Source: an uncultured Alphaproteobacteria bacterium (GTDB lineage: Bacteria > Pseudomonadota > Alphaproteobacteria > Parvibaculales > Parvibaculaceae). From it: a DNA stretch of 63,048 nt. Both the position numbers and the translations under genes were made by a program. The stretch is taken from NCBI GenBank assembly GCA_903889655.1, contig CAISYL010000080.1:1-63048 (forward strand). The letters run 5' to 3'. Below the pieces are notes generated by a model. That model was given only the letters and a program-made list of their open reading frames with translations, had not been told where the DNA came from and did not search any database. Of this stretch, positions 3,351-61,641 are shown piece by piece. The first letter of the stretch is position 1. Each line of letters begins with the position of its first letter.

Positions 3351-3427
3351 GCATGAGCCTTGCGCCCCTGCGCTCCCCGTCGATTATGATGACCGCAAGC
3401 AGAAGAAACGGCCCAGCGGAGGAACAG

Positions 3428-4162: not shown

Positions 4163-4216
4163 ACCTGGGCTTTGAACGCGACCTCTGAACGCAGCACGAA
4201 CAGGAAGGGAAACGTC

Positions 4217-4987
4217 ATGACGGAACTGAGCCGGTCGGTGAGGGGATTGACGGTGCTGGTCACTGGCGCCGCCAGCGGCATGGGCCGCGCGACGGCGGAA
4301 GTCTTCGCCGCCGAAGGGGCGAATGTCGCGGTGACGGATTACGACGGCGAGGGCGCGGAGGCCGTGGCCGCCGGCATCGTCGCCCAAGGCGGCAGGGCGA
4401 AAGCCTGGAAGCTCGACGTCGGCGACAAGGCGGAGATTGATGCGGTCGTCGCCGATGTCGCGCGACACTTCGGCGGGCTCGACGCCGTCGTCAACAATGC
4501 CGGCATCTCCGGCTTCACGCAGATCGACAATGAAGGTTATGACGAGCTCTGGGAGCGCATGATCCGCGTCTGTCTCACAGCGCATCAGCGCATCATCCGT
4601 GCCGCGCTGCCGCATCTGCGCAAATCGAAAAGTCCGCGCATCGTCAATATCGCCTCGACCGAGGCGCTGGGCGCGACGGCGCTCGATAGCGCCTATTCGG
4701 CGGCGAAGGCCGGCGTGACAGGTTTGACCCGGGCGCTTGCGGTCGAGCTCGGCAAGGAGGGCATCACCGTCAACTGCGTTTGTCCCGGTCCGATCCTCAC
4801 CGGCATGACGAGAGGCATTCCCGACGAGCAGAGGGACATTTATGCCAAGCGTCGCACCGCGCTTCGCCGCTATGGATTGCCGGAGGAAGTGGCGCACATC
4901 ACGCTGAGCCTCTGCATGCCGGCAGCGAGCTACATCACCGGCGTGACCATCCCCGTCGATGGCGGGCTGATGGCGCGGAATGCGTGA
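4217..4987 (+). CDS. SDR-family dehydrogenase
   Basis: A 256-residue classical SDR with the full motif set: GAASGMGRA cofactor loop, VNNAG, catalytic Ser in NIASTEA, YSAAK, and the PG segment CPGPILTGM. The C-terminus [11 protein letters not shown] is standard for FabG-like enzymes. It should oxidise a secondary alcohol or reduce a ketone in the same pathway as its neighbours. ATG 4217 follows GGAAGGGA by 6 bases; an in-frame start at 4172 has no ribosome-binding site. Three SDRs in one short cluster suggests a multi-step oxidation of a substrate with several hydroxyl groups. Confidence 0.88.
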
Positions 4988-5002
4988 GAAACGGATTTAG
5001 AT

Positions 5003-5049
5003 CCTCATCCTTCGAGACGCGGACCTTCGGTTCGCTCCTCGGGATGAGG
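5003..5049. repeat. Dispersed palindromic element (hairpin)
   Basis: The arms CCTCATCC and GGATGAGG enclose a second pair (CGAG and CTCG) and a central ACC-TTC-GGT mini-hairpin, giving a 47-base near-perfect hairpin between two genes. Elements of this form are scattered between genes in many Rhizobiales-like genomes. Only one copy is seen in this window. Confidence 0.65.
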
Positions 5050-45810: not shown

Positions 45811-47229
45811 ATGCCTCTGGAATCAAAACCCATCGAGTTTCGCGGCTGCATCGTCATGGTCGGTTTCGGCAGCATCGGTCGGGGTGTCTTGCCGCTGATC
45901 CTTCGCCACATCGGGGTGACGCCGGACCGCATGGTCATCGTGACCGCCGAAGAGGAGGGGCGGCGAGAGGCACAGCTTCAAGGCATTCGTTTCATTCTGC
46001 AGCCGCTGACGCGCGAGAATTACATTTCGGTTCTGGAGCCGCTGATCGGCGAGGGCGATTTCCTGCTCAATCTGTCCGTCGAAGTTTCGAGCCTTTCGCT
46101 CATCGAGCTCTGCTACGCGAAGAATGCGCTCTACCTCGACACCTGCAATGAACCGTGGCCGGGGCGGTATACGGATACGTCGCTGTCGCCGTCGATGCGT
46201 TCGAACTATGCGCTGCGCGAAGAGGCGCTGGAGCTGAGAGCGCGGCAGGAAGGCGGTCCGACGGCGATCCTGACGCATGGCGCCAATCCGGGCCTCGTTT
46301 CGCATTTCGTCAAGCAGGCACTCATCAATCTCGCCACGGATCAGGGACGCAGGATCGAGACGCCGAAAAGCCGCAGCGGATGGGCGGACCTTGCCGAACA
46401 GCTCGGCGTCAAGACGATCCATATCGCCGAGCGCGACACGCAGGTTTCGCCGGTGCCGAAGCGCGTCGGCGAATTCGTCAATACCTGGTCCGTGGACGGC
46501 TTCATCGGCGAAGGCAGCCAGCCGGCCGAACTCGGTTGGGGCAGCCATGAGAAGCATTTTCCACCCGATGGATTTCGCCATGACTTCGGTGACGGCGCGG
46601 CGATCTATCTCGGCCGGCCGGGCGCCTCAATGCGCATGCGCAGCTGGACGCCGCTCGAAGGGCCCTATCACGGATTCCTGATTACGCATGGCGAGTCGAT
46701 TTCGATTGCCGATTATCTGACGCAGAAGGATGGCGACCGTGTGCGCTACAGGCCGACCGTCCATTACACCTATCATCCGTGCGATGCCGCCGTTCTTTCG
46801 GTTCACGAGCTTGCGGGCAAGAACTGGAACGAGCAGACCGAGAAACGCATTATCGTCGATGAGATCACGAGCGGCATGGACGAGTTGGGCGTGCTGCTAA
46901 TGGGGCATGAACGCGGCGCCTACTGGTATGGATCGCAATTGTCGATCGGGGAGGCAAGAAGCCTTGCGCCCTACAACAATGCGACCGGCCTTCAGGTCAC
47001 GGCGGCAGTTCTCGGCGGCGTCGTCTGGGCGATCGAAAATCCGCGGCGCGGCATTGTCGAACCCGAGGAAATGGATTTCGAACGCGTGCTCGAAGTCGCG
47101 GGCCCTTATCTGGGTAATGTCGTCGGCGTCTATAGCGGCTGGACACCGCTGGTCGACCGCGGGCGTCTTTTTCCCGAAGATCTCGACATCGAGGATCCCT
47201 GGCAGTTCAAGAATTTCCGCGTGGTGTGA
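45811..47229 (+). CDS. hss: Homospermidine synthase
   Basis: A 472-residue bacterial homospermidine synthase, about the usual length. The Rossmann start is IVMVGFGSIGRGVLPLI, followed by LLNLSVEVSSL, YLDTCNEPWPG, LTHGANPGLVSHFVKQAL and the C-terminal AYWYGSQL and WTPLVDRGRLF segments typical of the family. It makes sym-homospermidine from two putrescines (or putrescine and spermidine) using NAD as a catalytic cofactor in the cytoplasm. Homospermidine is a common polyamine of alphaproteobacteria. It stands alone, divergent from adh and convergent with the phytanoyl-CoA dioxygenase-family gene. Confidence 0.94.
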   Translation: MPLESKPIEFRGCIVMVGFGSIGRGVLPLILRHIGVTPDRMVIVTAEEEGRREAQLQGIRFILQPLTRENYISVLEPLIGEGDFLLNLSVEVSSLSLIELCYAKNALYLDTCNEPWPGRYTDTSLSPSMRSNYALREEALELRARQEGGPTAILTHGANPGLVSHFVKQALINLATDQGRRIETPKSRSGWADLAEQLGVKTIHIAERDTQVSPVPKRVGEFVNTWSVDGFIGEGSQPAELGWGSHEKHFPPDGFRHDFGDGAAIYLGRPGASMRMRSWTPLEGPYHGFLITHGESISIADYLTQKDGDRVRYRPTVHYTYHPCDAAVLSVHELAGKNWNEQTEKRIIVDEITSGMDELGVLLMGHERGAYWYGSQLSIGEARSLAPYNNATGLQVTAAVLGGVVWAIENPRRGIVEPEEMDFERVLEVAGPYLGNVVGVYSGWTPLVDRGRLFPEDLDIEDPWQFKNFRVV

Positions 47230-47248: not shown

Positions 47249-48106
47249 CTAGATCTCGGCGGGTGGCCAGAGGCGAGGATTGATCGGGCCGTCGGCCGGC
47301 GTGCCGGGTTCCTTGCCGTCGAGCCAGACCTGATGATCGAAGTTGCGCGCCGGTGAATCGACCGGGCCGACATTGGTCCCGTCAGCATACCAGATGATGG
47401 TCATGACGGAGCGGAGCAGGGAGCTGTTGTTAGCGGGTGCGCGGTGGAGCGTCCAGCCTTTGTGGAAGGTGGCATCGCCCGCGCGCATCGCGCCGTGCGT
47501 CTCGGTCTCGTAGCCTTTCCGCGCCACGAGATCGGCGAAGGCAGCTTCCGATTCATCGCCGATGATCCAGGGGCCGAGATCGCCGTGGAGATGACTCCCG
47601 TTGGCGAAGGTCATCGAGCCGACCTCGGCGGGAATGTCCACAAGCGGCATCCACATGGTGACGGTCTCGTCCGTATCGAGCGGCCAGTAATTCTGATCCT
47701 GATGCCAGGGCGTATGTCCGCCGCCGGGCTCCTTGTAGAGCGCCTGATCGTGATAGAGGCGGACGCCGGAAACGCCGAGAAGATCGGCGGCGACTTTCGC
47801 AAAGCGCGGCGAATAGACGAAATCCTTGATTGTCGGATTGCGCGTCCACAGGTTGGGCACCTGCAGAAAGGCTTTGCCGTAGGTATCGCGCTCGGAGAGC
47901 GGCGCTGCGCGTTCGGCATATTTCAGCACCGCTGTTTCGATGGCCGGGCGATAGACCGCGATCTCGTCTGCGGAGGCGAGGCCGCGCACGACGGCATGGC
48001 CCTTCTGCTGGAGCGATGCGATGGCGGTCGGGTCGACAGGATACGGGGTGTCGAGCTTGCGAAACTGCTCGCGTTCCGCCTCGGTGATGAGTGCCGAAGA
48101 TGTCAT
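47249..48106 (-). CDS. Phytanoyl-CoA dioxygenase-family (PhyH) oxygenase
   Basis: A 285-residue Fe(II)/2-oxoglutarate oxygenase. The facial triad is His135 and Asp137 in HTPWHQDQNYW, with the distal His (about 221) in GWTLHRAPANNS. VTMWMPLVDIPAEVGSMTFANGS is the family core. It should hydroxylate a small molecule or acyl-CoA, but the substrate range of the family is wide. ATG 48106 is chosen because GGGGAG lies about 10 bases upstream; the frame to 48136 has no ribosome-binding site. A nested palindrome lies 41-54 bases upstream. Confidence 0.88.
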   Translation of the reverse strand: MTSSALITEAEREQFRKLDTPYPVDPTAIASLQQKGHAVVRGLASADEIAVYRPAIETAVLKYAERAAPLSERDTYGKAFLQVPNLWTRNPTIKDFVYSPRFAKVAADLLGVSGVRLYHDQALYKEPGGGHTPWHQDQNYWPLDTDETVTMWMPLVDIPAEVGSMTFANGSHLHGDLGPWIIGDESEAAFADLVARKGYETETHGAMRAGDATFHKGWTLHRAPANNSSLLRSVMTIIWYADGTNVGPVDSPARNFDHQVWLDGKEPGTPADGPINPRLWPPAEI

Positions 48107-48146
48107 GCGCGGTTCGTCTCCCCTCGAACGTGCCATGAAAATTTAC

Positions 48147-49679: not shown

Positions 49680-50879
49680 TCAGTCGGCCGGTTCGACGAT
49701 GATGACGGACGCCGCGTGATGGGCGCGGGCAAAGCGCAGGTGGAGAGCGAAGGCGATCGCCACCGCAAGGGCTAGGACGACCGCGGTGACCTCAAGAACG
49801 CCGCTCATATCGTGGTCGGTGGCGACGGCCGATGTCAGCATGGGACCGGCACTGCAACCGAGAAGTTGCGCGCCCGCCATGAGCATGGCGGAACGGCGGG
49901 ACGGATCGGCCTCGATGAGGAGCGGCACCTGAAACGGCAGGGCGAAGAGCCAGAGAAAGCCGAAGGCGGCGACGCAGAGCAGATAGATCGCCGCACTGGG
50001 CTGCATGGCAAAGATGCCGACGAGAGCTATATTGGCGAGGCCGCAGGCGATGAAGGCGAAGACCGCGTTTACGCGGCCGGCGAGGGCCGTTGCGGAGAAT
50101 CCGCCGACGACTTGCGCCGCGAGCGCGACGGCGACGGCCAGACCGGCGGTCTGTGGCGATACGCCGGCCAGTACGCCGACGCGTTCGATATAGACCCAGA
50201 GGCCGACAATCGCCGCGAGATAGAGGAAGACGACGAGCAGCGCGATGATGCCGGAGATCGGCAGCGCCGCGCCCGGTGTGTTGTCGGTTTTTGGCAGCGG
50301 CTCGAACCGATCCGGGATGAAAAACGTGCAGGCGATCGCGAGCGCGGAGAGCGCGCCCAGTGTGAAGAGCCCCACGTTCACGCCATAGATCGGCAACAGT
50401 GTGACGGGCAGGGCGGCGGCAAGCACGAACTGCATGAGGGTCTGCAGCGTGACGAAGATACCGGAAAGCCTCTCCGGCGATTGTCCGCGTGTAATCAGGT
50501 TGACGGCGACCCAGACGAGAAGACCTGACGCCGACCCCGCCACGGCACGAAGAAGGACGATGCCCATGCCGTCGACATAGATCGTGCCGAAATTGGCGGC
50601 CGCCAGAACGAGGCAGGCGGCGATGCTCATCAACCGCAGGCGATGCGGCTTGAGCAACATGCCGGCGAGGGCGGAGACGATGCCGATGGCGAGCAGTTCG
50701 CTCGTCGCGGCATAGCCAACCTCGGCCACGTCGAGGCGACCAGCTTCCGCGAGAGCCCCAAGCAGCAGGGGCTGCAGACCGAGCATCAGCAGAGCGATCG
50801 AGCCGAGAATGAGGCAGGCAGCAACAGCGCCGGTCTTCGGAGGAGCACCAAAACCATCGATACGCATACTGTCGGTCAT
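49680..50879 (-). CDS. MFS transporter, 12 TM
   Basis: A 399-residue major-facilitator protein of about 12 hydrophobic helices. It has VLLRAVAGSASGLLVWVAVN in the fourth to fifth helix region and a central loop FIPDRFEPLPKTDNTPG. No strong drug-export signature is seen. It is 22 bases downstream of the TonB-dependent receptor, so it probably carries the same ligand across the inner membrane after outer-membrane uptake. Substrate unknown. The clustering with a TetR regulator, aldolase, kinase and aminotransferase suggests a catabolic import role. Confidence 0.83.
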   Translation of the reverse strand: MTDSMRIDGFGAPPKTGAVAACLILGSIALLMLGLQPLLLGALAEAGRLDVAEVGYAATSELLAIGIVSALAGMLLKPHRLRLMSIAACLVLAAANFGTIYVDGMGIVLLRAVAGSASGLLVWVAVNLITRGQSPERLSGIFVTLQTLMQFVLAAALPVTLLPIYGVNVGLFTLGALSALAIACTFFIPDRFEPLPKTDNTPGAALPISGIIALLVVFLYLAAIVGLWVYIERVGVLAGVSPQTAGLAVAVALAAQVVGGFSATALAGRVNAVFAFIACGLANIALVGIFAMQPSAAIYLLCVAAFGFLWLFALPFQVPLLIEADPSRRSAMLMAGAQLLGCSAGPMLTSAVATDHDMSGVLEVTAVVLALAVAIAFALHLRFARAHHAASVIIVEPAD

Positions 50880-50901
50880 GATGCTCCTCCGTCTCCAGAG
50901 A

Positions 50902-53127
50902 TCAGAAATTGGTCTTGAAATAGACGCCGAAGGTTCGCGGATCGCCGTAGTAGAGGATGTCGAAGTTCAACGAATCGAGAGGAACCGTGTCGACGACATA
51001 CTTTTTGTCGAGAATATTCTTACCCCATATACCTGTTTCATAGGCGCCATCGGGCGAACGCCAGCCGAGGCGACCGTCGACGAGAAGCACCGGCCCTTGT
51101 GCAAGACGTTCGGTATTGCCGGTATCAGTGTAGACCTTCGCTTTGTAATTGCCGTTAAGCGTCGTCACGATCGCGTCTCCGCCTGAGAGCGCATATTCAT
51201 AATACGCTCCCGCATCCAGGCTCAACTTCGGTGCGTTGACCATCGTATTGCCCGAGTTGTCGACAGGGTTGCCGCTGCTGTCGAGGGTCTTGAAGTTTTC
51301 ATATTCGGAATGCAGCAGAGAGGCGCCGAGTGACAGCGTAAGCCCTTCCAAGGGGCGCGCTTGCACCTCGGCTTCTAGGCCATAGACCTTCGCGGCGGAG
51401 GCGTTATCCAGGATTTGAGCTGTCGTCAAACCACGCGGAACGAGCGTGTAGACCTGAAGATCCTTGTAGTCGTAGTAGAATGCCGAAGTATTCAGCCGCA
51501 GTTTTTTCGTTATATCGATCTTGGAACCAACTTCGTAGGCGTTCACGCTCTCATCATTGTACGGCCCCAAGTCGGATGCGACCGTCGTTGAGACACCGGA
51601 GAAACCACCGCCCTTGTATCCCCGGTTGTAGGTTGCGTAAACCTGCGCGGCATCGGTGATCTGATACTTGAGGCCAAGGCGGCCAGACAGAGAGCTCCAG
51701 TGCTTCGATTTATCATAGGAAAGAATGTGATCGGTGCCGTAATTGCCGACCTCATCATAATTAAAGTCTTTGAAGTCCGCTGAATAGCGCAGGCCGACGG
51801 TCGCCGTTAGCTTGTCGGTCACTTTGTAATCGGCTTGCCCAAAGGCAGCATAGCTATCCGTGCGCTGCTCATAAGGGTAGTAATAGTCCCCGATGGCGTC
51901 GGGAGGCGAATAGCCTAGATCAACAAGCGCGTCGACCCTGTTGTTCACCTTGAGCGACTCATGCGCGTAGTAGATGCCGGCCACCCAAGCAAGGGGCGTG
52001 TCGCCATTTGATTGGAGGCGCAATTCCTGACTGACTTGGTACTGTCGTGCTTTGTAGCGACTTTCGATCAGGTTCTCAGGATCGGAGTCCGTGTCCTCTA
52101 CGTCGTCGCGCAAAGACCAGTCCAGTGCAGAGATAGAGACGAGCGATGCTGAGCCGAGATCCCATTTGATATTGTTGGAGACGCCAAACAGGTCGACCGC
52201 GTCAGTTCCCTCGATGTTGTAGTCACCAGCAAAGGGATCCCCATCGTGGTCTGCATAGCCGTAGCCAAAGAGCCCGAAGAAGGTGCCACCAGGGGCGATC
52301 TCCCTGTTTTGCCCCATGATCGCTCCGTTGCGCAGCTTGCCCCCGCGGAACTGCGTCGTCATCTCGAAGTCTTCATTCGGCGTGAAGAGGAAGGTAAGGC
52401 GGCCTGCCCATTTATTGGTGTTGTTGACATCGTGGCCGGTCACGCGATTTTCGGTGTAGCCGTCATTGCGGCTGTAGGTGGCGGCGATGCGGACGGCGAG
52501 CTTGTCCTTAACGATAGCATCGCTGACGGCACCTTCCAGATTGAGCGTGTTGTAATTGCCGTATTCGGCGGAGGCATAACCTTCGAGGTCTTGCGTGGGC
52601 TTCGCCGTGATGATGTTGATCGCGCCGCCCGTTGTGTTGCGGCCGTAGAGCGTACCTTGCGGTCCGCGCAGTACTTCGACGCGTTCGAGATCGAAGAACT
52701 GACCGCCCTGCGCGAGCGGCGAGCCGATATAGGCGCCGTCGACATAAATGCCGACCGCGTTGGACGAGGTCGGGTTGAAATCGTTGGAGCCGATGCCGCG
52801 AATGAAGATTTTCGGATTGGCCGAGGCGTCCGCACTCTTGATCTGCAGTGACGGGGCGAGACCCGTCAGGTCGTTGACGTCCTTGACGCCCAGATCGTTC
52901 AGCGTGTCGGCGGTGAAGGCGGTCACCGCGACGGGGACCTTCTGGATGTTCTCCGAGCGCTTCTGCGCCGTGACGACGATCTCCTGAAGTGTTCCGTCGT
53001 CGGCCGTGGAGCTCGCGGTCGTGGCGGCTGGAGGTGGCGGTGCGGCCTCTTCGGCCTGGGCGACCGAGACGGCGAGGAGCAGCGCCGCGGTGCATGTGGT
53101 TCCCAGATATCGTGTGACGAACTTCAT
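50902..53127 (-). CDS. TonB-dependent outer-membrane receptor
   Basis: A 741-residue receptor. The signal peptide is cut after about VAQA, followed by a Pro/Ala-rich linker. The TonB-box-like EIVVTAQKR is near residue 50. The plug domain carries IFIRGIGSNDF, VGIYVDGAYIG and VEVLRGPQGTLYGRNTTGGAINIITAKP. The 22-strand barrel ends in YFKTNF with terminal Phe. It takes up a ligand too large or scarce for porins. An operator-like palindrome precedes it and the MFS gene follows. The barrel-coding half is visibly less GC-rich than its neighbours. The ligand is unknown; iron chelate, glycan or an aromatic or sugar derivative are all possible. Confidence 0.92.
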   Translation of the reverse strand: MKFVTRYLGTTCTAALLLAVSVAQAEEAAPPPPAATTASSTADDGTLQEIVVTAQKRSENIQKVPVAVTAFTADTLNDLGVKDVNDLTGLAPSLQIKSADASANPKIFIRGIGSNDFNPTSSNAVGIYVDGAYIGSPLAQGGQFFDLERVEVLRGPQGTLYGRNTTGGAINIITAKPTQDLEGYASAEYGNYNTLNLEGAVSDAIVKDKLAVRIAATYSRNDGYTENRVTGHDVNNTNKWAGRLTFLFTPNEDFEMTTQFRGGKLRNGAIMGQNREIAPGGTFFGLFGYGYADHDGDPFAGDYNIEGTDAVDLFGVSNNIKWDLGSASLVSISALDWSLRDDVEDTDSDPENLIESRYKARQYQVSQELRLQSNGDTPLAWVAGIYYAHESLKVNNRVDALVDLGYSPPDAIGDYYYPYEQRTDSYAAFGQADYKVTDKLTATVGLRYSADFKDFNYDEVGNYGTDHILSYDKSKHWSSLSGRLGLKYQITDAAQVYATYNRGYKGGGFSGVSTTVASDLGPYNDESVNAYEVGSKIDITKKLRLNTSAFYYDYKDLQVYTLVPRGLTTAQILDNASAAKVYGLEAEVQARPLEGLTLSLGASLLHSEYENFKTLDSSGNPVDNSGNTMVNAPKLSLDAGAYYEYALSGGDAIVTTLNGNYKAKVYTDTGNTERLAQGPVLLVDGRLGWRSPDGAYETGIWGKNILDKKYVVDTVPLDSLNFDILYYGDPRTFGVYFKTNF

Positions 53128-53171
53128 GGCGATCCCCTGTCCCCGTCACGACAACTACGTGACAAACAGAA

Positions 53172-53189
53172 CGATAGTGGTCGCTATCG
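53172..53189. promoter_or_regulatory. Candidate TetR operator upstream of the TonB receptor
   Basis: CGATAG-N6-CTATCG is a perfect 18-bp inverted repeat, 45-62 bases before the receptor start and directly after the TetR gene. Its position suggests that the adjacent TetR protein represses the receptor and MFS genes. Confidence 0.55.
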
Positions 53190-53216
53190 AAGTGTCAAAC
53201 GGTTTTCAGCGGTCCG

Positions 53217-53942
53217 TCAGCGGAATTTTGAGTAGTAGAGCGCGATCATCGAGGCGAGTTCCTCGGTCATTTTTTTGGCATCTTCGGGCTCTTCGATGGC
53301 CATTTCGGTGGCAGCATATCCCACTTCGGTGGTGAGACGCGCGGCCATCCGCAATTCTTCCTCGTCCGTTTTCCTGTAAAGAGTGCTCAAACATTTGGCG
53401 ATGTGGTTGGCGACGAGGTCGCGAGAGGCGATACGCACCTCGCGCAGCACCGGCACAGCGCGCATCGCACGCATGATCCACACGCCACCCGGTTCGCGCC
53501 GCGTGATCTCGTTGACCTGCTGCTGGATGTCGAGCGTCTTGCGGTAGCTCTCTTCGTAGTTTTTCGATTCGAGCCCGCCGTTTTCGATCCAGGCAAAGAC
53601 GGCATCGTCCTGCCGTTGCATCAGCCGGGCGCCAAGCTCGCGCAGTAATGCATATTTGTTCGGGAAATATCGATAGAGGGCGGGCGGAGTGAGGCCGGCG
53701 CGCTTGCAGACAAGATTGGTGGAAAGCTGTTCGACGCCGACCTCTTCGAGAAGTTCGCCGGCCGCCGCCAGAATGGCGTCATAGGTCTGCCGAGAGCGCT
53801 CCTGCAAAGGCTGAGTCTTCATCTCCATGTCGGGAGACCGATTGCCTCCGCGCTTGCCCGCCTTCAGGGCCGCCGCCGTGGCACGCTTCACCGGCGCTTT
53901 CGCGGCCGTGTCGGGATCCTTGCGTTTGCCTGTGCTCTTCAA
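53217..53942 (-). CDS. TetR-family regulator
   Basis: A 241-residue TetR regulator. The helix-turn-helix lies at about residues 45-95 (YDAILAAAGELLEEVGVEQLSTNLV, then RAGLTPPALYRYFPNKYALL), followed by an all-helical ligand domain. The frame begins with TTG 53942, behind GCGGA, and adds a Lys/Arg-rich 38-residue tail before MEMKTQPLQERSR. ATGs at 53828 and 53822 are alternatives with no ribosome-binding site. It lies 89 bases downstream of the aldolase and upstream of the TonB receptor, with a palindrome on the receptor side. It probably senses the imported compound or a breakdown product. Confidence 0.87.
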   Translation of the reverse strand: MKSTGKRKDPDTAAKAPVKRATAAALKAGKRGGNRSPDMEMKTQPLQERSRQTYDAILAAAGELLEEVGVEQLSTNLVCKRAGLTPPALYRYFPNKYALLRELGARLMQRQDDAVFAWIENGGLESKNYEESYRKTLDIQQQVNEITRREPGGVWIMRAMRAVPVLREVRIASRDLVANHIAKCLSTLYRKTDEEELRMAARLTTEVGYAATEMAIEEPEDAKKMTEELASMIALYYSKFR

Positions 53943-54031
53943 GATCGTCCGCTCTGGATTACTGGTTCTCTGTCATCCGAAGATGTTCCCCGCTGACGGC
54001 CGCGTCAATGAGGAGGATTGCCACAATCTCC

Positions 54032-54688
54032 TCAACGCTTCTGTCCATAGCCGCGAAACTGATTGAATATCTCCGCCATCTGATCGTCCGACAGTATGTG
54101 CGGTTCGCCGATCAGCAGCGTACCGTAATAGACGGCCGCCTGTTCCTCGACTTCCTCGGCCAGCGCATAGGCATGGTCGAGGTTGCGGCCAAGGGCAATC
54201 TGGCCGTGATTGGCCATAAGGCAGGCGAGGCGTCCATCGAGAGAGGCCACCACGGTGTCGGCGAGTTCCGACGTGCCAAATACCTCGTAAGGTGCCACGG
54301 GAACCTCCGTGCCGCCGGTTACGCCGACCATGTAATGAATGGCGGCAATGGGCTTGTGGCTGCAGGCGAGGATCGTTGCGTGGCGCGAATGACAGTGGAC
54401 GACGGCATTCATGTCGGGGCGCTTTTCGAGAATGCGCTGATGCATGCGCCATTCGCTGGAGGGGCGTTTCGCGCCAGGCGAGGTCGTGCCGTCGGCTGCG
54501 ACCTCGACGATGCTGTCCTCGTCGAGCAGGTCGGGCACGATGCCGCTTGGAGTCACAAGGATGCCATCGCCGAAGCGCACGGACGCGTTGCCGGAGGTCC
54601 CGCGGTTGAGGCCGCTTGCCGCCATTTTCTTCATGACGCGGACAAGGCCGGCACGGAGTTGCATTTCGTCGGATTGTGGCGCGGTCAT
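54032..54688 (-). CDS. Class II aldolase/adducin-family (fuculose-phosphate aldolase-like)
   Basis: A 218-residue class II aldolase domain protein with zinc ligands His98 and His100 in VVHCHSRHA, His161 in ANHGQIALG, and Glu79 in SSEWRMH. GTSGNASVR and VTPSG form the phosphate/substrate loops. Relatives split L-fuculose-1-P, L-ribulose-5-P or similar ketose phosphates into dihydroxyacetone phosphate and an aldehyde. It begins 9 bases after the kinase gene, so kinase and aldolase probably act in sequence. It is not part of the oxidative fucose operon 30 kb away. A 10-bp hairpin overlaps its stop codon. Confidence 0.87.
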   Translation of the reverse strand: MTAPQSDEMQLRAGLVRVMKKMAASGLNRGTSGNASVRFGDGILVTPSGIVPDLLDEDSIVEVAADGTTSPGAKRPSSEWRMHQRILEKRPDMNAVVHCHSRHATILACSHKPIAAIHYMVGVTGGTEVPVAPYEVFGTSELADTVVASLDGRLACLMANHGQIALGRNLDHAYALAEEVEEQAAVYYGTLLIGEPHILSDDQMAEIFNQFRGYGQKR

Positions 54689-54697
54689 CGTCGATCC

Positions 54698-55639
54698 TCA
54701 GTTCGTTCTCAGCGGAGCTTGCCGCATGAAAGCCTCGGTCGCCTCGAAACTCTCCACGCGGCCGAGTGTGCCGAGCCCTTGTGCAACCAAAGCCGCCGTC
54801 GCGGTCGCGAAACGGCAAGCATCGACGATATCCCAGCCGCGATCGAGCGCAGCGATGAAGCCCGCGCAATAGGAGTCGCCACAACTCGTCGTGTCGACCG
54901 GTTCGATAGCATAGGCGGGGAGGCGTTGCGTGTCTTCGCCGAGCGCGAGTAAGGAGCCTTCGGCGCCGAGCTTGAAAATACAGTTCTGGGCGCCCATCGC
55001 CTGAAAGGCTTTGGCGGCATCTTCCGGTGTCTCCGTCTCGGTCAGGAACAGGGCTTCGGAAATGCTCGGCATGAAATAATCGACATAAGGCAGTATCTGC
55101 TCGAGTTCTGATTTGGTGTGGGGGCCGGGCGCGATGATATCGCAGACGACGAGCGCCCCGGCCACTTTGGCCGTGGCGAGAAAGCGTTTGCGTGCCTCGG
55201 CGTCGATGTTCGGCGCGCCGACGGCGCCCCAATGGATGTACCGCGCGCTTTTGGCGGCTTCGATCGCTTCTTCAGACAGGGTCATGAATATGCTGGCGCC
55301 CAACGCATGCAATGTGGGCCGCCGACCCTGGTTGTCGATCGGGAGAATGGTGGCCGATGTGGTCATGCCCGGCAACGTGGCGAGGAAGGCGGTGTCGACG
55401 CCGTAATCCTCGTAAGTGAGGCGCAGGAAGCGCGCAATGCGATCTTCGCCAAGTGCGGAGACGAGTGCCGTGTCGACGCCGAGCGCGGCGGCGACGAGCG
55501 CCGTGCCGCCCGCCGTACCGGCCGGCATGATCTCGATCTGCTCGATCAGCCGTCCCGCTCCGTCTTCCGGGATGGAGTCGATCGGCCGCCCGAGAATATC
55601 GAGCGTGGTCAATCCGACGGCCAGCAGTCTTCCTCCCAT
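54698..55639 (-). CDS. PfkB-family carbohydrate kinase
   Basis: A 313-residue ribokinase-fold kinase. It has the N-terminal VGLTTLDILG, GTAGGTALVAAALG, and the C-terminal DTTSCGDSYCAGFIAAL with the catalytic Asp. The usual GAGD anion-hole reads SCGD, a variation seen in some uncharacterised PfkB branches. It should phosphorylate a ketose or sugar acid, providing the substrate of the following aldolase (9-base gap). The ribosome-binding site AAAGGAG is strong. It is divergent from the class III aminotransferase, which may act before it. Confidence 0.87.
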   Translation of the reverse strand: MGGRLLAVGLTTLDILGRPIDSIPEDGAGRLIEQIEIMPAGTAGGTALVAAALGVDTALVSALGEDRIARFLRLTYEDYGVDTAFLATLPGMTTSATILPIDNQGRRPTLHALGASIFMTLSEEAIEAAKSARYIHWGAVGAPNIDAEARKRFLATAKVAGALVVCDIIAPGPHTKSELEQILPYVDYFMPSISEALFLTETETPEDAAKAFQAMGAQNCIFKLGAEGSLLALGEDTQRLPAYAIEPVDTTSCGDSYCAGFIAALDRGWDIVDACRFATATAALVAQGLGTLGRVESFEATEAFMRQAPLRTN

Positions 55640-55669
55640 CGTCTTCTCCTTTGGCGTTTATTGTTCGCC

Positions 55670-55687
55670 TTGATAGCGCGCTTTCAA
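55670..55687. promoter_or_regulatory. Near-perfect palindrome in the kinase/aminotransferase divergent promoter
   Basis: TTGATAGCGCGCTTTCAA pairs at 8 of 9 positions. It lies between the two divergent starts (84-base gap), where one regulator could control both directions. It differs from the operator-like site at 53172 apart from a shared GATAG core. Confidence 0.42.
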
Positions 55688-55723
55688 TATGGTAGTCAAA
55701 GCTATTGTATCTGACCAAGGGAG

Positions 55724-57001
55724 ATGCCGGTGAACAACAAGATCGATCTCGAACTTCGGGCGCGAGCCAAGGCCGTCATCCCCAATGGCATGTATGGCCA
55801 CGAGTCTGTGGGGTTGCTGCCCGACGGCTATCCGCAGTTCTTCGCCAAGGCCGACGGCGCCTATATCTGGGACGTCGACGGCAATCGTTACCTCGATTTC
55901 ATGTGTGCGTATGGGCCCAATCTCCTGGGCTACAAGCACGAAAAGATCAACGCGGCCTATATCGATCAGCTGTCGCGTGGCGATGCGATGACGGGCCCGT
56001 CACCGATGCTCGTCGAGCTTGCCGAAAATTTCGTCGGAATGGTTTCGCATGCCGACTGGGCGATGTTCGCGAAGAACGGCACGGACGTGACCTCGATGGC
56101 AATGGTCATCGCGCGGGCGCATACCGGCAAGAAGAAGATCGTGCTCGCGAAGGGTGCCTATCATGGCGCCGCTCCGTGGTGCACGCCGATCAAGAATGGC
56201 GTCACCGAGGAAGACCGGGCGAACCAGATTTTCTATGACTATAACGATGTCGCGAGCCTCGAGGCCGCGGTGAATGAGGCGGGCGACGATCTCGCGGCGA
56301 TCTTCGGATCGCCCTTCAAGCACGATGCCTTTGTCGACCAGGAAATGCCCAACCCCGCCTATGCGCGCCGTGCCCGCGAACTCTGCGATGCCAAGGGTGC
56401 GCTGCTTGTAGTCGACGATGTGCGGGCGGGGTTCCGCCTGGCGCGCGACTGCAGCTGGTCGCTCGTGGGCGTTCAGCCGGATCTCAGTGCCTGGGGTAAG
56501 CTGATCGCGAACGGTCATCCGATCTCGGCGCTGCTCGGCTCGGAAAAGGCGCGGGAAGCGGCCGGCTCGATCTATGTCACCGGCTCCTATTGGTTCGCCG
56601 GGGCGGCCATGGCGGCGGCCGTCGCAACGCTGAAGGAAATCCGCGAGACTGACTATCTCGAGCACACGGTCAAGCTCGGAACCAAGCTACGCAACGGCCT
56701 CGCCGAACTCGCGGCGGCGAGCGGCTTCGGTCTTCGCCAGACCGGTCCCGTGCAGATGCCGCTCTTTCTGTTCGACGACGATGCCGATTTTCGCAAGGGC
56801 TACTTCTGGAGCGCGGAACTGTTGAAGCACGGCGTCTATGTGCATCCGTGGCACAACATGTTCCTTTGTGCAGCCATGAAGGACGAGGACATCGACCTGG
56901 CGCTGAGGGCGGCTAAGGAAGGTTTCGCGGCCCTGAAGCAGCACCAAGGCGCGCTCGAACGCATCGGCAAGCTCGATGCGCTTCAGGCGGCTCACGTCTG
57001 A
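55724..57001 (+). CDS. Class III PLP aminotransferase (glutamate-1-semialdehyde aminomutase-like)
   Basis: A 425-residue fold-I PLP enzyme. It has DGNRYLDFMCAYGPNLLG near the start, the FAKNGTDVTSMAMVIARAHTG phosphate loop, the cofactor Asp in VVDDVRAGFR (the common Glu is Asp), and the PLP Lys in DLSAWGKLIANGHPISALLG. It moves an amino group or performs a 1,2-aminomutase shift on a small substrate. The ATG at 55724 lies directly on AAGGGAG; the in-frame GTG at 55730 has ideal 6-base spacing and may be the real start. It is divergent from the kinase/aldolase pair and probably removes an amino group from the imported compound. Confidence 0.87.
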   Translation: MPVNNKIDLELRARAKAVIPNGMYGHESVGLLPDGYPQFFAKADGAYIWDVDGNRYLDFMCAYGPNLLGYKHEKINAAYIDQLSRGDAMTGPSPMLVELAENFVGMVSHADWAMFAKNGTDVTSMAMVIARAHTGKKKIVLAKGAYHGAAPWCTPIKNGVTEEDRANQIFYDYNDVASLEAAVNEAGDDLAAIFGSPFKHDAFVDQEMPNPAYARRARELCDAKGALLVVDDVRAGFRLARDCSWSLVGVQPDLSAWGKLIANGHPISALLGSEKAREAAGSIYVTGSYWFAGAAMAAAVATLKEIRETDYLEHTVKLGTKLRNGLAELAAASGFGLRQTGPVQMPLFLFDDDADFRKGYFWSAELLKHGVYVHPWHNMFLCAAMKDEDIDLALRAAKEGFAALKQHQGALERIGKLDALQAAHV

Positions 57002-57002
57002 A

Positions 57003-57020
57003 GCTGAAGTATCCTTCAGC
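57003..57020. terminator. Hairpin between the convergent aminotransferase and ssuB genes
   Basis: A perfect 7-bp stem GCTGAAG/CTTCAGC with a TATC loop spans the few bases between the two stops. The U-run is poor, so termination is plausible but weak. Confidence 0.45.
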
Positions 57021-57774
57021 CGGTTTCTCCGAGAGATAATAGCACCTCGGCTTTCAGCCGGCTGAAGGCAACGTCCGTGCGATCGCGCGGGCGCGGCAGG
57101 TCGACGTCCACCGTCTTGCGGATGCGGCCGGGGCGGGGCGCCATGACGACGACGCGATCTCCGAGATAAAGCGCTTCGTCGACGTCATGCGTCACCAGCA
57201 CCATGGTAATGCCTTCGGCTTGCCAGATATGCTGCAGTTCTTCCTGCATGTGAGCGCGGGTCAGTGCATCCAATGCGCCGAAAGGCTCGTCCAGCAGCAG
57301 CAAGGCGGGACGGTTGACGAGACCGCGGGCGATGGCGGCGCGTTGCGCCATGCCGCCCGAGAGCTGTCTGGGAAATGCCTTTTCGAAACCATTGAGGCCG
57401 ACGAGAGAAATATGCCCGGCGATGCTGGCGCGTTTCTCCTCGACACTCAGCTGTGAGTTTTCAAGCGCCAGCGCGATGTTTTCCTCGACGGTCAGCCAGG
57501 GGAATAGCCTGTGCTCCTGAAAGATGAGGCCGCGCGCCAGGCTGGTGCCGGAGATGCGCTTGCTGCCCAGCAGAATTTCTCCGCCATAGTCGCTATCGAG
57601 GCCGGAGATGAGGCGGAGCAGGGTGGACTTGCCGCAACCGCTCGGGCCGAGCAGCGACAGGAATTCGCCCGGTTCGACGGTAAGGCTCAGATCGTCGATC
57701 GCCGCGAAGGCGTCGCCGGCCACCTGGAAGCGCTTGTTGATGTGGCGAATGTCGAGCGTGCCAAGTTCCGTCAT
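57016..57774 (-). CDS. ssuB: Sulfonate/taurine ABC transporter ATPase
   Basis: A 252-residue ABC ATPase with all motifs intact: Walker A GPSGCGKST, Q-loop IFQEHRLFPW, signature LSGGMAQR, Walker B LLLLDEPFGALD and H-loop THDVDEAL. It matches the SsuB/TauB class (EHRLFPWLTVEENIALAL). It powers the two permeases encoded upstream. ATG 57774 is 13 bases after the permease stop; the longer frame is rejected because it lies over the permease gene. It is the last gene of the ssuA-permease-permease-ssuB operon. Confidence 0.92.
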   Translation of the reverse strand: MTELGTLDIRHINKRFQVAGDAFAAIDDLSLTVEPGEFLSLLGPSGCGKSTLLRLISGLDSDYGGEILLGSKRISGTSLARGLIFQEHRLFPWLTVEENIALALENSQLSVEEKRASIAGHISLVGLNGFEKAFPRQLSGGMAQRAAIARGLVNRPALLLLDEPFGALDALTRAHMQEELQHIWQAEGITMVLVTHDVDEALYLGDRVVVMAPRPGRIRKTVDVDLPRPRDRTDVAFSRLKAEVLLSLGETG

Positions 57775-57787
57775 GTTCCGGTTCCGA

Positions 57788-58552
57788 TCAATTCGTGTCC
57801 TGCCAGCGCAGCACATAGGCCTGCATGCGATTGGCGATAGTGTTGAAAAGAAAGCCCACGCCGCCGATGACACCCATACCGAGCAGCACAAGCTCCATGC
57901 GGAATTGCTCGCGGCCCTCCATGATGGCGCTGCCGATGCCGGGTGCGACGGCGAAGAGATATTCTGCGCCGATGGTAGCGAGCCAGGCATAGATCAGCGC
58001 GAGGCGGAGACCGGTGGCGATCGACGGGGCGGCGGAGGGCAGGATCACTCTGCGGAGCGTCTGAAGACGCGTGAGTTTCAGGATGCGGGCGACTTCGAGA
58101 TAGCGCGCATCGACGCTTCGCACGCCCTGATAGGTGTTGAGCATCACGGGCAGGAAGACCGCGAGGCCGATGAAGGCGATCTTGGCCGGCTCGTCATTGC
58201 CAAGCCAGATCGACATCAATGGAATCCACGTGAAGAGCGCGATGTGCTTCAAGCCGTTGAGAAGGGGGCTCAGCAAGTCGTCGAGCAGGCGGATTGTACC
58301 GAGGCCTGCACCCAGAACGAGGCCTACAAAGCCGCCGCCAAGGAGGCCGAGGACGTCGCGCCTGAGACTTGCACCGAGCGCAGTGAGAAGCGATCCATCG
58401 CGAAACTGCTCACGCGCCGTCGCCACCACCGCTTCGGGCGAGGCCCAGATGCGCGTGTCGAGCAGGCCATGACGGATGGAGAGGTCCCAGGCGATGAGCA
58501 GCAGCAGCGGGAAGACGAGGCCCGAGCCGAGAATTTTTTCGAGCCTGCTCAT
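57788..58552 (-). CDS. ssuC: Sulfonate ABC transporter permease (SsuC type)
   Basis: A 254-residue inner-membrane permease of about six helices. The cytoplasmic EAA-loop is YLEVARILKLTRLQTLRRVILPSAAPSI, and the C-terminal segment carries AYAWLATIGAEYLF-like features of the TauC/SsuC family. It overlaps the first permease by 4 bases (ATGA). Two different permeases in one operon suggest a heterodimeric channel, whereas E. coli SsuC is a homodimer. Confidence 0.9.
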   Translation of the reverse strand: MSRLEKILGSGLVFPLLLLIAWDLSIRHGLLDTRIWASPEAVVATAREQFRDGSLLTALGASLRRDVLGLLGGGFVGLVLGAGLGTIRLLDDLLSPLLNGLKHIALFTWIPLMSIWLGNDEPAKIAFIGLAVFLPVMLNTYQGVRSVDARYLEVARILKLTRLQTLRRVILPSAAPSIATGLRLALIYAWLATIGAEYLFAVAPGIGSAIMEGREQFRMELVLLGMGVIGGVGFLFNTIANRMQAYVLRWQDTN

Positions 58553-59469
58553 GTGGCTCCTCCATAACGCCGCGCCAGCGTCGTTTCGGCTTGTGCGAGC
58601 AACTTGTCGAGCGTGAAGCCGATGATGCCGATGACGATCATGGTGGCGATCATCACGTCGAGCTGAAAGAGTTGCCGTGCCATGACCATCTGGTAGCCAA
58701 CACCTTCCGTCGAGGCGAGGAGTTCGACCACGACGAGCGATTGCCAGGCATGCGTGAGGCCGTAGCGCAGACCGGTGAAGATCGGGAGCAGGGCGCCGGG
58801 CAGCATGATCCGGCGTAATGTCTGGAGCTTGCCGAATTTGTAGATCCGGCCAAGTTCGAGATAGGCCTTCGGGATGTTGCGGAAGCCATCAAGCGTATTC
58901 AGCATCGTCGGGATCAACGCCGCTTCCGCGATGATGACGATCTTCAAGGCTTCGCCGATCCCGAAGAGGATCATCAGGAAGGGTATCCAGGCGAGAACGG
59001 GTATCTGTGCAACCGCGAGGAAGGTCGGTCGCAGAAAGCGCTCGACACGCGGCGAGAGCCCCATCGCTGCGCCAAGCACGAGACCGATGAGCGCGCCGGC
59101 CGCGAAGCCGGACGCCACGCGCCTGACGCTGATCGTCAGGTTGGCTGCAAGGTCGCCGGACGCGACCATCGATGCGAGGGCGCTGTAGACGGTTTCGGGC
59201 GATGGCAGGATGAGCTGCGGGACAAGGCCGGCACGGGACGCGATATCCCAAAAGAAGAGCAACAGGATCGGGGAGAGCGATCCGAGGCATAGGCGCCGAT
59301 AGGGAAAGGCACCGCGGACGGCGATCGCCTTTTGCCGCTGCCGGACCTGCAGCGTGGCTTCGCCCGCGATCGGTGCGACAGGCAGTTTGATAAGCGTGGC
59401 CGTTTTGCCGGAAGGCGCGGGAATAAGGCGCCGGCGAAGCGGCGCAAGATTTGTGTTCGACGCTCTCAT
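58549..59469 (-). CDS. ssuC: Sulfonate ABC transporter permease (SsuC type, long N-terminus)
   Basis: A 306-residue permease with an N-terminal hydrophilic extension of about 60 residues before the first helix (LGSLSPILLLFFWDIAS). The EAA-loop is YLELGRIYKFGKLQTLRRIMLPGALLPI, followed by AWQSLVVVELLAS. It is clearly homologous to the downstream permease but diverged from it. It overlaps both the substrate-binding-protein gene and the second permease gene by 4 bases, so the three are translationally coupled. Confidence 0.9.
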   Translation of the reverse strand: MRASNTNLAPLRRRLIPAPSGKTATLIKLPVAPIAGEATLQVRQRQKAIAVRGAFPYRRLCLGSLSPILLLFFWDIASRAGLVPQLILPSPETVYSALASMVASGDLAANLTISVRRVASGFAAGALIGLVLGAAMGLSPRVERFLRPTFLAVAQIPVLAWIPFLMILFGIGEALKIVIIAEAALIPTMLNTLDGFRNIPKAYLELGRIYKFGKLQTLRRIMLPGALLPIFTGLRYGLTHAWQSLVVVELLASTEGVGYQMVMARQLFQLDVMIATMIVIGIIGFTLDKLLAQAETTLARRYGGAT

Positions 59470-60545
59470 TGCGTGACCACCGGCTTGCCGTCCTTGTCGA
59501 ATTCCGGCCAGTAACGTTCGAGGCCAAGCGACTGCAGGGCGAGTTTCAGCGGCTCGCGGTCGATCCAGCCATTCATGTCGACGGGGGAGCGGATCAGGTT
59601 GAAACGCAGAGAGTTTGCCGCGGAGCGCTCATATTGCGCGGTGATGAAGTCGTCGAATAGAGGGCTGTTCAGGATCTTCGGGTCTTCGCCGGCCTGCGCC
59701 TCCTTGAAGAGCGCCGCCGGTACGCCGACCTTGGCCCAGATGTCATAGAGCGCGGGCTGGTTCGCCGGTTCGGAGGCCCAATGCGCTTCACCGACCAACA
59801 CCTTGACGACGCGATTGACGATCGCCGGATGCGCCTTCGCAAAATCGTCGGTCACGAGAAAGGCAGCCTGCGAGGACAGCTTCGGGTCCTGGCCTTTGGT
59901 CGTATAGAGGTATTTGATGAGGCCCTTGTCGCGCGCGCCGAACGAGTAATAAGACGTGAACGACGCATCGACCTGATGCGCGGCGAGCGCGGAGAGGCTC
60001 GTCGCTGCGTCGAGGTTGACGACCTTGAGGTCGCGGTATGAGAGGCCGACGGTCGACAGGATGTTCGCGGCGGTAAGCTGGAAAAGTGTGCCGTTGAAGT
60101 TCGAGACCGTGCGGCCCTTGAGATCGGCAAGACTCTTCAGCGTCGAGTCCGACGGGATCGCGATATAGGTCGGGAAGCGCGTACCGGCCGCGAGAAGAAG
60201 CCGCGTTTTGAGCCCGAGAGAGCGGCCGACGATTTCGGGCAGGTCGCCTTGCCATGCGAAATCGAGCTGGCCGCTGGCAAGCGCTTCATTGACCGCCGGG
60301 CCCGCGCCGGCGAAGAAGTGCCATTCGATCTTTGTACCGTCTGCGGCAAATTCCTTCTCCAGCAATCCCTTCACATGCACGCCGGATATGTAATTACCGG
60401 CCGAATAGGGACGCCCTCCGACGCCGGCCATGGCGACCCCGATGCGGATGACGTCAGGCTTGTCTCCGGCCTGTGAGGTCAGGGGACCGGCGAAAATGCT
60501 CGCCGAGAGGACGAGTAAAAATCCGAAAATACGCCGAACCGGCAT
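59466..60545 (-). CDS. ssuA: Sulfonate ABC transporter substrate-binding protein
   Basis: A 359-residue periplasmic binding protein. The signal peptide ends near LTSQA-GD. It has an IRIGVAMAGVGGRPYSAGN binding strand, LDFAWQGDLPEIVGRSLG, and the DLKGRTVSNFNGT domain typical of SsuA/TauA/NrtA-like proteins. It should capture aliphatic sulfonates or sulfate esters for the downstream permeases. ATG 60545 is preferred because AAAGGA is 5 bases upstream; an in-frame ATG at 60551 overlaps that site. It is divergent from tauD, sharing a 172-base regulatory region. Confidence 0.88.
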   Translation of the reverse strand: MPVRRIFGFLLVLSASIFAGPLTSQAGDKPDVIRIGVAMAGVGGRPYSAGNYISGVHVKGLLEKEFAADGTKIEWHFFAGAGPAVNEALASGQLDFAWQGDLPEIVGRSLGLKTRLLLAAGTRFPTYIAIPSDSTLKSLADLKGRTVSNFNGTLFQLTAANILSTVGLSYRDLKVVNLDAATSLSALAAHQVDASFTSYYSFGARDKGLIKYLYTTKGQDPKLSSQAAFLVTDDFAKAHPAIVNRVVKVLVGEAHWASEPANQPALYDIWAKVGVPAALFKEAQAGEDPKILNSPLFDDFITAQYERSAANSLRFNLIRSPVDMNGWIDREPLKLALQSLGLERYWPEFDKDGKPVVTQ

Positions 60546-60594
60546 GGGCATCCTTTCCGCATTTGGCGCCGACCCGGCTCCGCAAACCACATCT

Positions 60595-60624
60595 GCACAA
60601 CGTGAAAGAAGAAAGTCGTTGTGC
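60595..60624. promoter_or_regulatory. Inverted repeat in the ssuA/tauD divergent promoter
   Basis: GCACAACG-N14-CGTTGTGC is a perfect 8-bp inverted repeat, and a third CGTTGTG half-site follows at 60628-60634, next to a TATATAAG element. The arrangement resembles a LysR-like multi-site operator, but no regulator gene is adjacent. Confidence 0.45.
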
Positions 60625-60645
60625 TTTCGTTGTGTTTATATAAGT

Positions 60646-60660
60646 CTATTAAACAGATAG
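60646..60660. promoter_or_regulatory. Palindromic regulatory site upstream of tauD (copy 2)
   Basis: CTATTAAACAGATAG differs in one base from the 15-mer in front of ssuD at 42241-42255. It is centred about 65 bases before the tauD start, a position similar to that at ssuD. It probably links these loci to one regulator. Confidence 0.55.
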
Positions 60661-60717
60661 GATCAAGGTAGATTCTTCGCCAATTTTCAAATCGCAATCG
60701 CGCGAAAAGGAGGCTTC

Positions 60718-61641
60718 ATGACGGCAAATGACAATCAGACCCTCGCGGCACTCGGTTTTGAAGTGGTCCCGGTGGCGGGACGTATCGGCGCCGAAGTACG
60801 GGGCATCAAGCTTTCGGGCACGCTCGATGCGCGGGCGCTTGGCGCGTTACGCGAGACGCTGAACCGGTACAAGGTGCTTTTCTTCCGCGGACAGACGCAT
60901 CTCGACGACGTCACGCAAGAGGCGTTTGCGACGGCGCTGGGCAAGCCGCTCGCGCATCCGACGGTGCCGGTCAAGCAGGGCAGTTCATGGCTCCTCGAAC
61001 TCGACTCGCAATATGGCGGACGGGCGAATTCCTGGCATACCGACATCACCTTCCTCGACGCCTATCCCTGGGCATCCATCCTGCGCGCGGTGGTCGTTCC
61101 AGCGGCCGGCGGGGACACCGTCTGGGCGAATACGGCGGCGGCCTATCAGGAGCTTTCGCCCGAACTCAAGTCGCTGGCCGACAATCTCTGGGCGCTGCAC
61201 ACCAATGATTACGATTACGCCGCGGTGCGCCGGGATATCACCGACGAACAGATCAAGCGGCACAAGGAAGTCTTCGCTTCGACCGTCTATGAGACCGAGC
61301 ACCCGCTGGTACATGTCCACCCGGAAACCGGTGAGCGGCATCTTCTGACCGGGCATTTCCTGAAGCGGATTCTCGGTGTTTCATCTGCGGATTCGGCGCG
61401 TCTCTTTTCCGTCTTCCAGGATCATGTGACCCGGCTCGAAAACACGGTGCGCTGGCGCTGGGCGGTCGGCGACGTTGCCATCTGGGACAATCGCGCCACG
61501 CAACATTACGCAGTCAACGATTATGGCGACGAGCACCGCGTCATGCGCCGCGTCACGCTGGCGGGCGAAGTACCCGTCGGCGTCGACGGGCGGCGCAGCC
61601 GGACGGTGAAGCCGGCTCCGGTCAGCATCGCGGCGGAATGA
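60718..61641 (+). CDS. TauD/TfdA-family 2-oxoglutarate dioxygenase (sulfonate or alkylsulfate cleaving)
   Basis: A 307-residue Fe(II)/2-oxoglutarate dioxygenase. The metal triad is His107 and Asp109 in SWHTDITF plus His263 in RATQHYAVNDYG, with the oxoglutarate-binding Arg near 274-278. It has the length and HPLVHVHPETGERHLL segment of TauD and AtsK enzymes, which oxidise taurine or alkyl sulfates to release sulfite or sulfate. AAAAGGAGGC gives a strong ribosome-binding site. Divergence from the sulfonate importer and the shared palindrome with ssuD support a sulfur-scavenging role. Taurine versus alkylsulfate cannot be decided here. Confidence 0.9.
   Translation: MTANDNQTLAALGFEVVPVAGRIGAEVRGIKLSGTLDARALGALRETLNRYKVLFFRGQTHLDDVTQEAFATALGKPLAHPTVPVKQGSSWLLELDSQYGGRANSWHTDITFLDAYPWASILRAVVVPAAGGDTVWANTAAAYQELSPELKSLADNLWALHTNDYDYAAVRRDITDEQIKRHKEVFASTVYETEHPLVHVHPETGERHLLTGHFLKRILGVSSADSARLFSVFQDHVTRLENTVRWRWAVGDVAIWDNRATQHYAVNDYGDEHRVMRRVTLAGEVPVGVDGRRSRTVKPAPVSIAAE

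Follow-up and report, generated by a model that had tools for sequence, protein, structure and literature searches.

Six genes at positions 49680–57001 of a 63,048-nucleotide contig from an uncultured alphaproteobacterium of the family Parvibaculaceae (CAISYL010000080.1; this whole stretch is the window) raise the question of which compound would call for a TonB-dependent receptor, a major facilitator superfamily (MFS) transporter and a TetR-family regulator beside a PfkB-family kinase, a class II aldolase and a divergently transcribed class III aminotransferase. All six are confirmed as intact open reading frames (ORFs) at the coordinates that an initial annotation had assigned to them, and Pfam agrees with its labels. 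That annotation predicted the import of an amino-bearing sugar or polyol, followed by deamination, phosphorylation and aldol cleavage; the sequence of reactions is supported here by linkage, co-occurrence and a shared operator, but the proposed substrate is probably wrong, since the aminotransferase is of the FumI type and amide hydrolases lie near many of its relatives. On sequence evidence a sphingoid base is likelier than an amino-bearing sugar or polyol, and we place just short of an even chance on the module serving, under TetR control, to break down bases of the phytosphingosine (4-hydroxysphinganine) type.

The identity of the aminotransferase (55724–57001, plus strand, divergent from the other five genes; GTG at 55730 is a possible alternative start) carries most of this argument. 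Among sequences in the PDB its top match is 6hbs, labeled 'aminopentol aminotransferase' (E = 3.8e-155), and the next family, glutamate-1-semialdehyde aminomutase, follows at 7e-49. The window enzyme is identical to 6hbs at 231 of 401 aligned residues (58%), and K259, which we take to be the catalytic lysine that binds pyridoxal 5′-phosphate (PLP), lies in a WGKLIANG motif aligned with WGKCFANG of 6hbs, the lysine being conserved. Assignment as a glutamate-1-semialdehyde aminomutase was rejected: this is the top NCBIfam model at 223 bits, but its cut-off is 398, and the family lies far below FumI among the PDB matches. Two midpoint-rooted trees, one of 100 sequences and one of 40, place the window enzyme in a clade together with every named Phenylobacterium enzyme sampled; its sister group consists of FumI and two plasmid proteins. 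PMC9858248 identifies 6hbs as FumI of Sphingopyxis sp. MTA144 and describes three more FumI homologues that degrade hydrolysed fumonisin B1, at least one of them from Phenylobacterium (source organisms in PMC10204369); FumI itself, according to PMC2933618, moves the C2 amine of hydrolysed fumonisin B1 onto pyruvate. If the tested Phenylobacterium proteins belong to the clade of the window enzyme, then the tested enzymes would bracket it in the trees. Because it is FumI-type, and this family has tested members that deaminate a long-chain amino alcohol, the window aminotransferase probably acts on a compound of that kind rather than on an amino sugar.

The association of this enzyme with the kinase and the aldolase was examined in 99 FumI-like loci, comprising 80 named loci (the best 80 of 177), 15 further genome stretches, three plasmid regions and the window; L087 and L088 (fetched for the kinase and carrying no FumI-like gene), L083–L086 and L131–L140 stand outside this count, and 'near' means within 8 kb of the aminotransferase. 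In 14 of the 99 loci (8 of the 80 named) kinase and aldolase genes are both found near that of the aminotransferase, and 85 are without the pair. Besides the window, the 14 include four loci from Phenylobacterium, one each from Brevundimonas, Novosphingobium, Sphingopyxis, Sandaracinobacteroides and the genome G311, three from the genus to which the window belongs and one on an N. capsulatum plasmid. Environmental isolates that have all three genes include Novosphingobium olei TW-4 and Phenylobacterium aquaticum KACC 18306, the latter with another FumI-like gene as well (L054). Gene order varies among them; relatives of the MFS gene are found in 11 and of the receptor gene in 8, the window included in each case and with some loci ending early. 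Across the 14 loci, the distances of the aminotransferase correlate with those of the kinase at r = 0.94 and with those of the aldolase at 0.54, and kinase distances with aldolase distances at 0.63, each with a Mantel p of 0.0002, although shared ancestry contributes to these values. In the window's own family (40 genomes), the aminotransferase (E 1e-100) occurs in four genomes and the kinase (E 1e-40) in the same four, adjacent in each. In a class-wide sample of 385 genomes, 13 have the aminotransferase and four the kinase (E < 1e-55); as only two genomes, one being that of the window, have both, the co-occurrence in the class sample is weak by itself. The clustering of kinase and aldolase with the aminotransferase exceeds chance.

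A shared regulatory element further ties the genes together. Reading nine divergent promoters yielded the palindrome TAGYNNNNRCTA, the core of which occurs exactly twice in the 63-kb window: as ATAGTGGTCGCTAT at 53174–53187, upstream of the TonB receptor gene, and as GTAGTCAAAGCTAT at 55692–55705, in the divergent promoter between kinase and aminotransferase (both are operator-like sites to which no strand is assigned). Resampled copies of the module contain two or more sites in only 1 of 500 cases. A longer form of the palindrome with one mismatch allowed gives four window matches against 1.3 expected, a number equaled in 4 of 100 shuffles; it is therefore the strict form and its position that matter. 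When the approximately 330 bp upstream of the aminotransferase were searched, the palindrome was present in all 16 loci that have a nearby TetR like that of the window, in none of 11 with a different type of TetR and in 2 of 72 in which no TetR was found; nine of the 16 had been absent from motif discovery, and all nine have it. A site upstream of the receptor gene is also found in L003, L016, L036, L045, L064 and L128, and none is listed there for L079, L058, L059 or L090. Five sites lie in the N. capsulatum plasmid region, compared with a mean of 0.15 in resampled sequence: one precedes the receptor gene, another the aminotransferase gene, a third separates the aldolase gene from a cytochrome P450/aldehyde-dehydrogenase pair, and two are further out. 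The TetR-family protein encoded at 53217–53942 (minus strand; Pfam TetR_N) is, from this operator association, the probable regulator of the module, acting through the palindrome; TetR control, merely assumed in the initial annotation, thus gains support from a conserved palindrome in both module promoters. Taken together, the six genes make up a module that recurs and is apparently co-regulated. In the window's own genome, a slightly longer pattern identifies 10 distinct places, of which two are in the module and one is upstream of a P450 on contig C272, a possible distant member of the regulon judging from its upstream sequence. This P450 (L161, 5196–6590) is 39–40% identical to P450s in the aminotransferase clusters of L101 and L128.

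The aldolase (54032–54688, minus strand) and the PfkB/ribokinase-family kinase (54698–55639, minus strand; Pfam PF00294, 163.5 bits) are encoded 9 bp apart. The aldolase is FucA-like, sharing 90 of 202 residues (45%) with FucA of Escherichia coli, and it retains H98, H100, H161, E79, Y119, Y214, N34, S77 and S78, positions that correspond to the zinc ligands, the catalytic glutamate and tyrosine and the phosphate site of FucA. Across eight linked aldolases the residues assigned to these metal, catalytic and phosphate sites do not vary, and their retention, including the phosphate site, leads us to expect a phosphorylated ketose as the substrate. The protein falls below the L-fuculose-phosphate aldolase equivalog TIGR01086 (191 bits, cut-off 400), and for the aminotransferase and the kinase too no NCBIfam model shown reaches its cut-off; a structure model of the aldolase was modest (predicted local distance difference test, pLDDT, 78) and was set aside. 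For the kinase, the nearest PDB sequence is E. coli YdjH (3h49), labeled uncharacterised; an AlphaFold model (pLDDT 89) has the ribokinase fold and matches ribokinases, YdjH and sulfofructose kinase, and the DTTSCGD motif, with its catalytic GD, is invariant in nine linked kinases. FucA-type aldolases give (3R,4R) diols. In a parity check, turning C2 of phytosphingosine (2S,3S,4R) into a ketone left C3 and C4 configured as in FucA products and D-ribulose; the other three classes of dihydroxyacetone phosphate (DHAP) aldolase do not match.

These observations can be assembled into a route in which the sphingoid base is handled as a sugar. The TonB receptor (50902–53127, minus strand; Pfam PF00593/PF07715) and the MFS protein (49680–50879, minus strand; a weak match to Pfam MFS_1 with E = 5.9e-7 and 29.2 bits against a curated cut-off of 33.4) would import the base or a lipid containing it. 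The aminotransferase, by the type of reaction known for FumI, would convert the C2 amine to a ketone, giving a 1,3,4-trihydroxy-2-oxo-alkane that is in effect a ketose with a hydrocarbon tail. The kinase would then phosphorylate the C1 hydroxyl, although phosphorylation may also precede transamination, and the FucA-type aldolase would cut 2-keto-phytosphingosine 1-phosphate between C3 and C4 to give DHAP and a long-chain aldehyde, pentadecanal in the case of C18 phytosphingosine. DHAP could enter glycolysis, and the aldehyde could be oxidized and passed to β-oxidation; no sphingosine-1-phosphate lyase would be required. We infer the substrate, the order of steps, the products, the direction of transport and the ligand of the TetR. 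The fullest form of this proposal, which we hold tentatively and at somewhat less than even chance, is an undescribed pathway that degrades phytosphingosine, and phytoceramides via coupled amide hydrolases, as a ketose by C2 transamination, C1 phosphorylation and FucA-type retro-aldol cleavage, governed by a sphingoid-sensing TetR whose operator TAGYNNNNRCTA would in relatives also control receptor, transporter, amidohydrolase and P450/aldehyde-dehydrogenase genes.

The inclusion of amide hydrolases stems from the neighborhoods of related aminotransferases. Of the 80 named loci, 54 have an amidase gene no more than 8 kb from that of the aminotransferase, and in a first clustering it was directly downstream in 46 of 81 (the label comes from Pfam for L003, L006, L012 in part and L063, and from similarity for the rest). 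A DMFA2_C-type protein, a label with which Pfam agrees in all five of the seven proteins on which it was run, is encoded near the aminotransferase in 7 of the 99 loci, four of which have the kinase and aldolase. The presence of two unrelated families of amide hydrolase near the same aminotransferase suggests an amide as the source of the amine, with ceramide as the obvious candidate; either family would fit release from an N-acylated lipid. Our guess for the amidase-linked loci is ceramide turnover in organisms that make sphingolipids. L063 provides an example, with a FumI-like aminotransferase and an amidase-signature protein at 9001–11983 and no kinase. The window's own genome encodes a single DMFA2_C protein, 48–51% identical to three linked ones, on another contig (C48), with a glycoside hydrolase family 5 (GH5) gene approximately 3 kb away (the two lie at 3015–5036 and 8102–9646 of L147); the nearest solved relatives of that GH5 protein include a sterylglucosidase (8exd) and, more weakly, endoglycosylceramidase. 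The assembly consists of 294 contigs and has 3.67% contamination, so that for genes located on other contigs there is some chance of mis-binning. Neutral ceramidase was rejected as a partner, since PF04734 has no match in the own genome or in any of the 13 class-sample genomes that carry the aminotransferase. The three strongest of 11 PF04734 matches are in genomes of the same family (G143, G009 and G242; L125–L127), which match the full profile and have no FumI-like aminotransferase.

Several observations weigh against a phytosphingosine pathway. Two of the four class-sample genomes with the kinase have no aminotransferase: G026 (L088) encodes a kinase 39–40% identical and an aldolase 44% identical to those of the window, without a FumI-like aminotransferase, and G335 encodes a kinase 43% identical, with no aldolase match in the stretch read. 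The initial annotation had named kinase–aldolase pairs consistently lacking the aminotransferase, the receptor or the MFS gene as what would speak against its module; one such pair occurs, in G026, the receptor and MFS genes accompany 8 and 11 of the 14 linked loci (some of which end early), and 85 of the 99 loci are without the pair, so that this counter-evidence is in part present. None of the 54 amidase-linked named loci has the kinase or the aldolase. Of the seven remaining palindrome sites in the own genome, five appear by eye to be inside ORFs and two before genes that look unrelated; the pattern therefore lacks specificity when used by itself. No such site is present in the 18-kb stretch read around the own-genome DMFA2_C gene. 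The same genome encodes a sphingosine-1-phosphate-lyase-like protein on another contig and, as noted, no PF04734 ceramidase. It has 21 Aminotran_1_2 matches, and among the nine strongest, which were classified, none reaches the serine-palmitoyltransferase cut-off and one each is a 5-aminolevulinate synthase and a BioF by cut-off; a BioF/Kbl-family protein (L113, on C63) is below every NCBIfam cut-off, scoring 197–294 bits with serine-palmitoyltransferase models that have cut-offs of 500–670, so that a sphingolipid-making enzyme in this genome is conceivable. Finally, we know of no PfkB kinase that acts on lipids.

The leading alternative, which is the view of the initial annotation, is a soluble amino sugar alcohol or amino polyol as substrate: the receptor and the MFS protein would take it up, transamination would make it a ketose, and the kinase and the FucA-like aldolase would phosphorylate and split that ketose. 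Where the substrates of the best solved kinase and aldolase relatives are known, they are small sugars, and the pair can, as in G026, exist apart from the aminotransferase. A sister clade in the aminotransferase tree is also relevant: the three members examined, in Pseudoroseomonas (L139, 5972–9212), Shinella (L140, 901–9227) and G340 (L097, 7332–10592), have nearby a protein of the 3-oxo-tetronate-kinase family (two of three over the cut-off) and a FucA-like aldolase, with intervening genes in Shinella, and in both plasmid examples the gene of a solute-binding protein adjoins the aminotransferase, so a soluble substrate is possible in that clade. The different kinase and the solute-binding proteins count against a lipid substrate; at the level of sequence, the clade at the same time supports the aminotransferase–kinase–aldolase logic, reached through an unrelated kinase. 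We nevertheless regard a soluble substrate as unlikely, because the window aminotransferase is placed next to FumI and among relatives that act on a long-chain amino polyol, because amide hydrolases are found near many relatives, and because the common D-amino-sugar alditols would give ketoses of FruA or TagA rather than FucA configuration (judged with the parity check).

Similarity to FumI equally invites the idea that the module detoxifies or catabolizes sphinganine-analogue mycotoxins such as fumonisins and AAL toxins, as in Sphingopyxis MTA144, and in the fum cluster, too, a TonB receptor and an MFS gene lie beside the aminotransferase gene. A C1 hydroxyl is absent from hydrolysed fumonisin B1 (judging from the compound name in PMC2933618), which leaves no obvious role for the kinase and FucA-type cleavage, and no esterase, FumD included, is among the six module genes; eight matches to the COesterase family, two of them nearly full length, are on other contigs of the own genome. 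We consider this explanation improbable. Slightly less probable still, in our estimate, is that the enzymes divide their work on one imported glycolipid, the aminotransferase acting on the sphingoid base and the kinase and aldolase on a sugar of the head group. Co-regulation is possible without shared intermediates, and the GH5 gene close to the DMFA2_C gene would suit a glycolipid, but the correlated divergence of aminotransferase and kinase, to which shared ancestry contributes, and the lack of an isomerase among the six genes argue for a single route. The phytosphingosine pathway, in which all three enzymes act on one molecule, remains our preferred reading.

Genes flanking the module were considered as members and set aside, as they are not conserved with it: the SsuABC-like and TauD genes (57016–61641), PhyH (47249–48136) and a thiolase. 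None of the 80 named loci (flanks of up to 9 kb) has a match to TauD, SsuA, PhyH or the permease; the ATP-binding protein of the SsuABC-like set has matches at only 27–32% identity, in L014, L023 and L057, and thiolase matches (36–38%) are exclusively in loci without the kinase and aldolase. The genes adjoining the module at 57016–61641 encode an SsuABC-like sulfonate ABC transporter and a TauD-family dioxygenase. On the other side, 45811–47229 encodes a saccharopine-dehydrogenase-type protein (Pfam) that resembles homospermidine synthase, beside what appears by eye to be a zinc alcohol dehydrogenase.

Phytosphingosine is one of the main backbones of plant and fungal sphingolipids, and its abundance there leads us to expect a steady supply in soils. 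As the textbook degradation of sphingoid bases rests on sphingosine-1-phosphate lyase, conversion to a ketose and the use of sugar enzymes would, if true, constitute a second solution; it would also explain FumI-like enzymes in bacteria that have perhaps never been exposed to fumonisin, and the TetR sensor and the enzymes could be used to detect or remove sphingoid bases and related mycotoxins. No description of the proposed route was found in the literature searched, drawn mostly from outside subscription journals, and within it the statement of the initial annotation that it knew of no described pathway with exactly this set of genes holds.

In the canonical breakdown of sphingoid bases, sphingosine kinase and sphingosine-1-phosphate lyase act in turn, the lyase cutting between C2 and C3 to give phosphoethanolamine and a fatty aldehyde. 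The proposed route would likewise cut a phosphorylated sphingoid base so as to leave a fatty aldehyde and a small fragment that carries the phosphate, but it would do so by a C3–C4 retro-aldol reaction on a ketone, yielding DHAP and an aldehyde one carbon shorter, and Pfam detects no sphingosine-1-phosphate lyase among the six module genes. A 2018 sphingolipid review notes that the lyase depends on phosphorylation and that phytosphingosine is a base of plants and yeast (PMC6148460), and a eukaryotic phytosphingosine pathway is named in the title of a reference cited in PMC10002949. The sphBCD genes of Pseudomonas aeruginosa, which according to PMC11893366 encode a predicted cytochrome c together with an oxidoreductase and a PLP-dependent aldolase, resemble the module in being bacterial genes that help remove sphingoid bases under a sphingosine-responsive regulator; unlike the window, they do not combine a FumI-type enzyme with a PfkB kinase and a FucA-type aldolase. 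Neither an SphC oxidoreductase nor an SphB cytochrome c is among the six module genes, to which this search was confined. The L-fucose and 5-deoxyribose routes use a kinase and a FucA-type aldolase to convert a ketose 1-phosphate into DHAP and an aldehyde. Cleavage of a ketose 1-phosphate by a FucA-type enzyme would be common to those routes and the module, but in the window, where Pfam finds no isomerase among the six genes, the ketose would arise by transamination, and a TonB receptor and a FumI-type enzyme are present. With the FumI system of Sphingopyxis sp. MTA144, the module shares a class III aminotransferase (the 58% identity described above) whose tested homologues remove the C2 amine from a long-chain amino alcohol; it differs in being without the fumonisin esterase and in the linkage of its aminotransferase to a kinase and a FucA-like aldolase.

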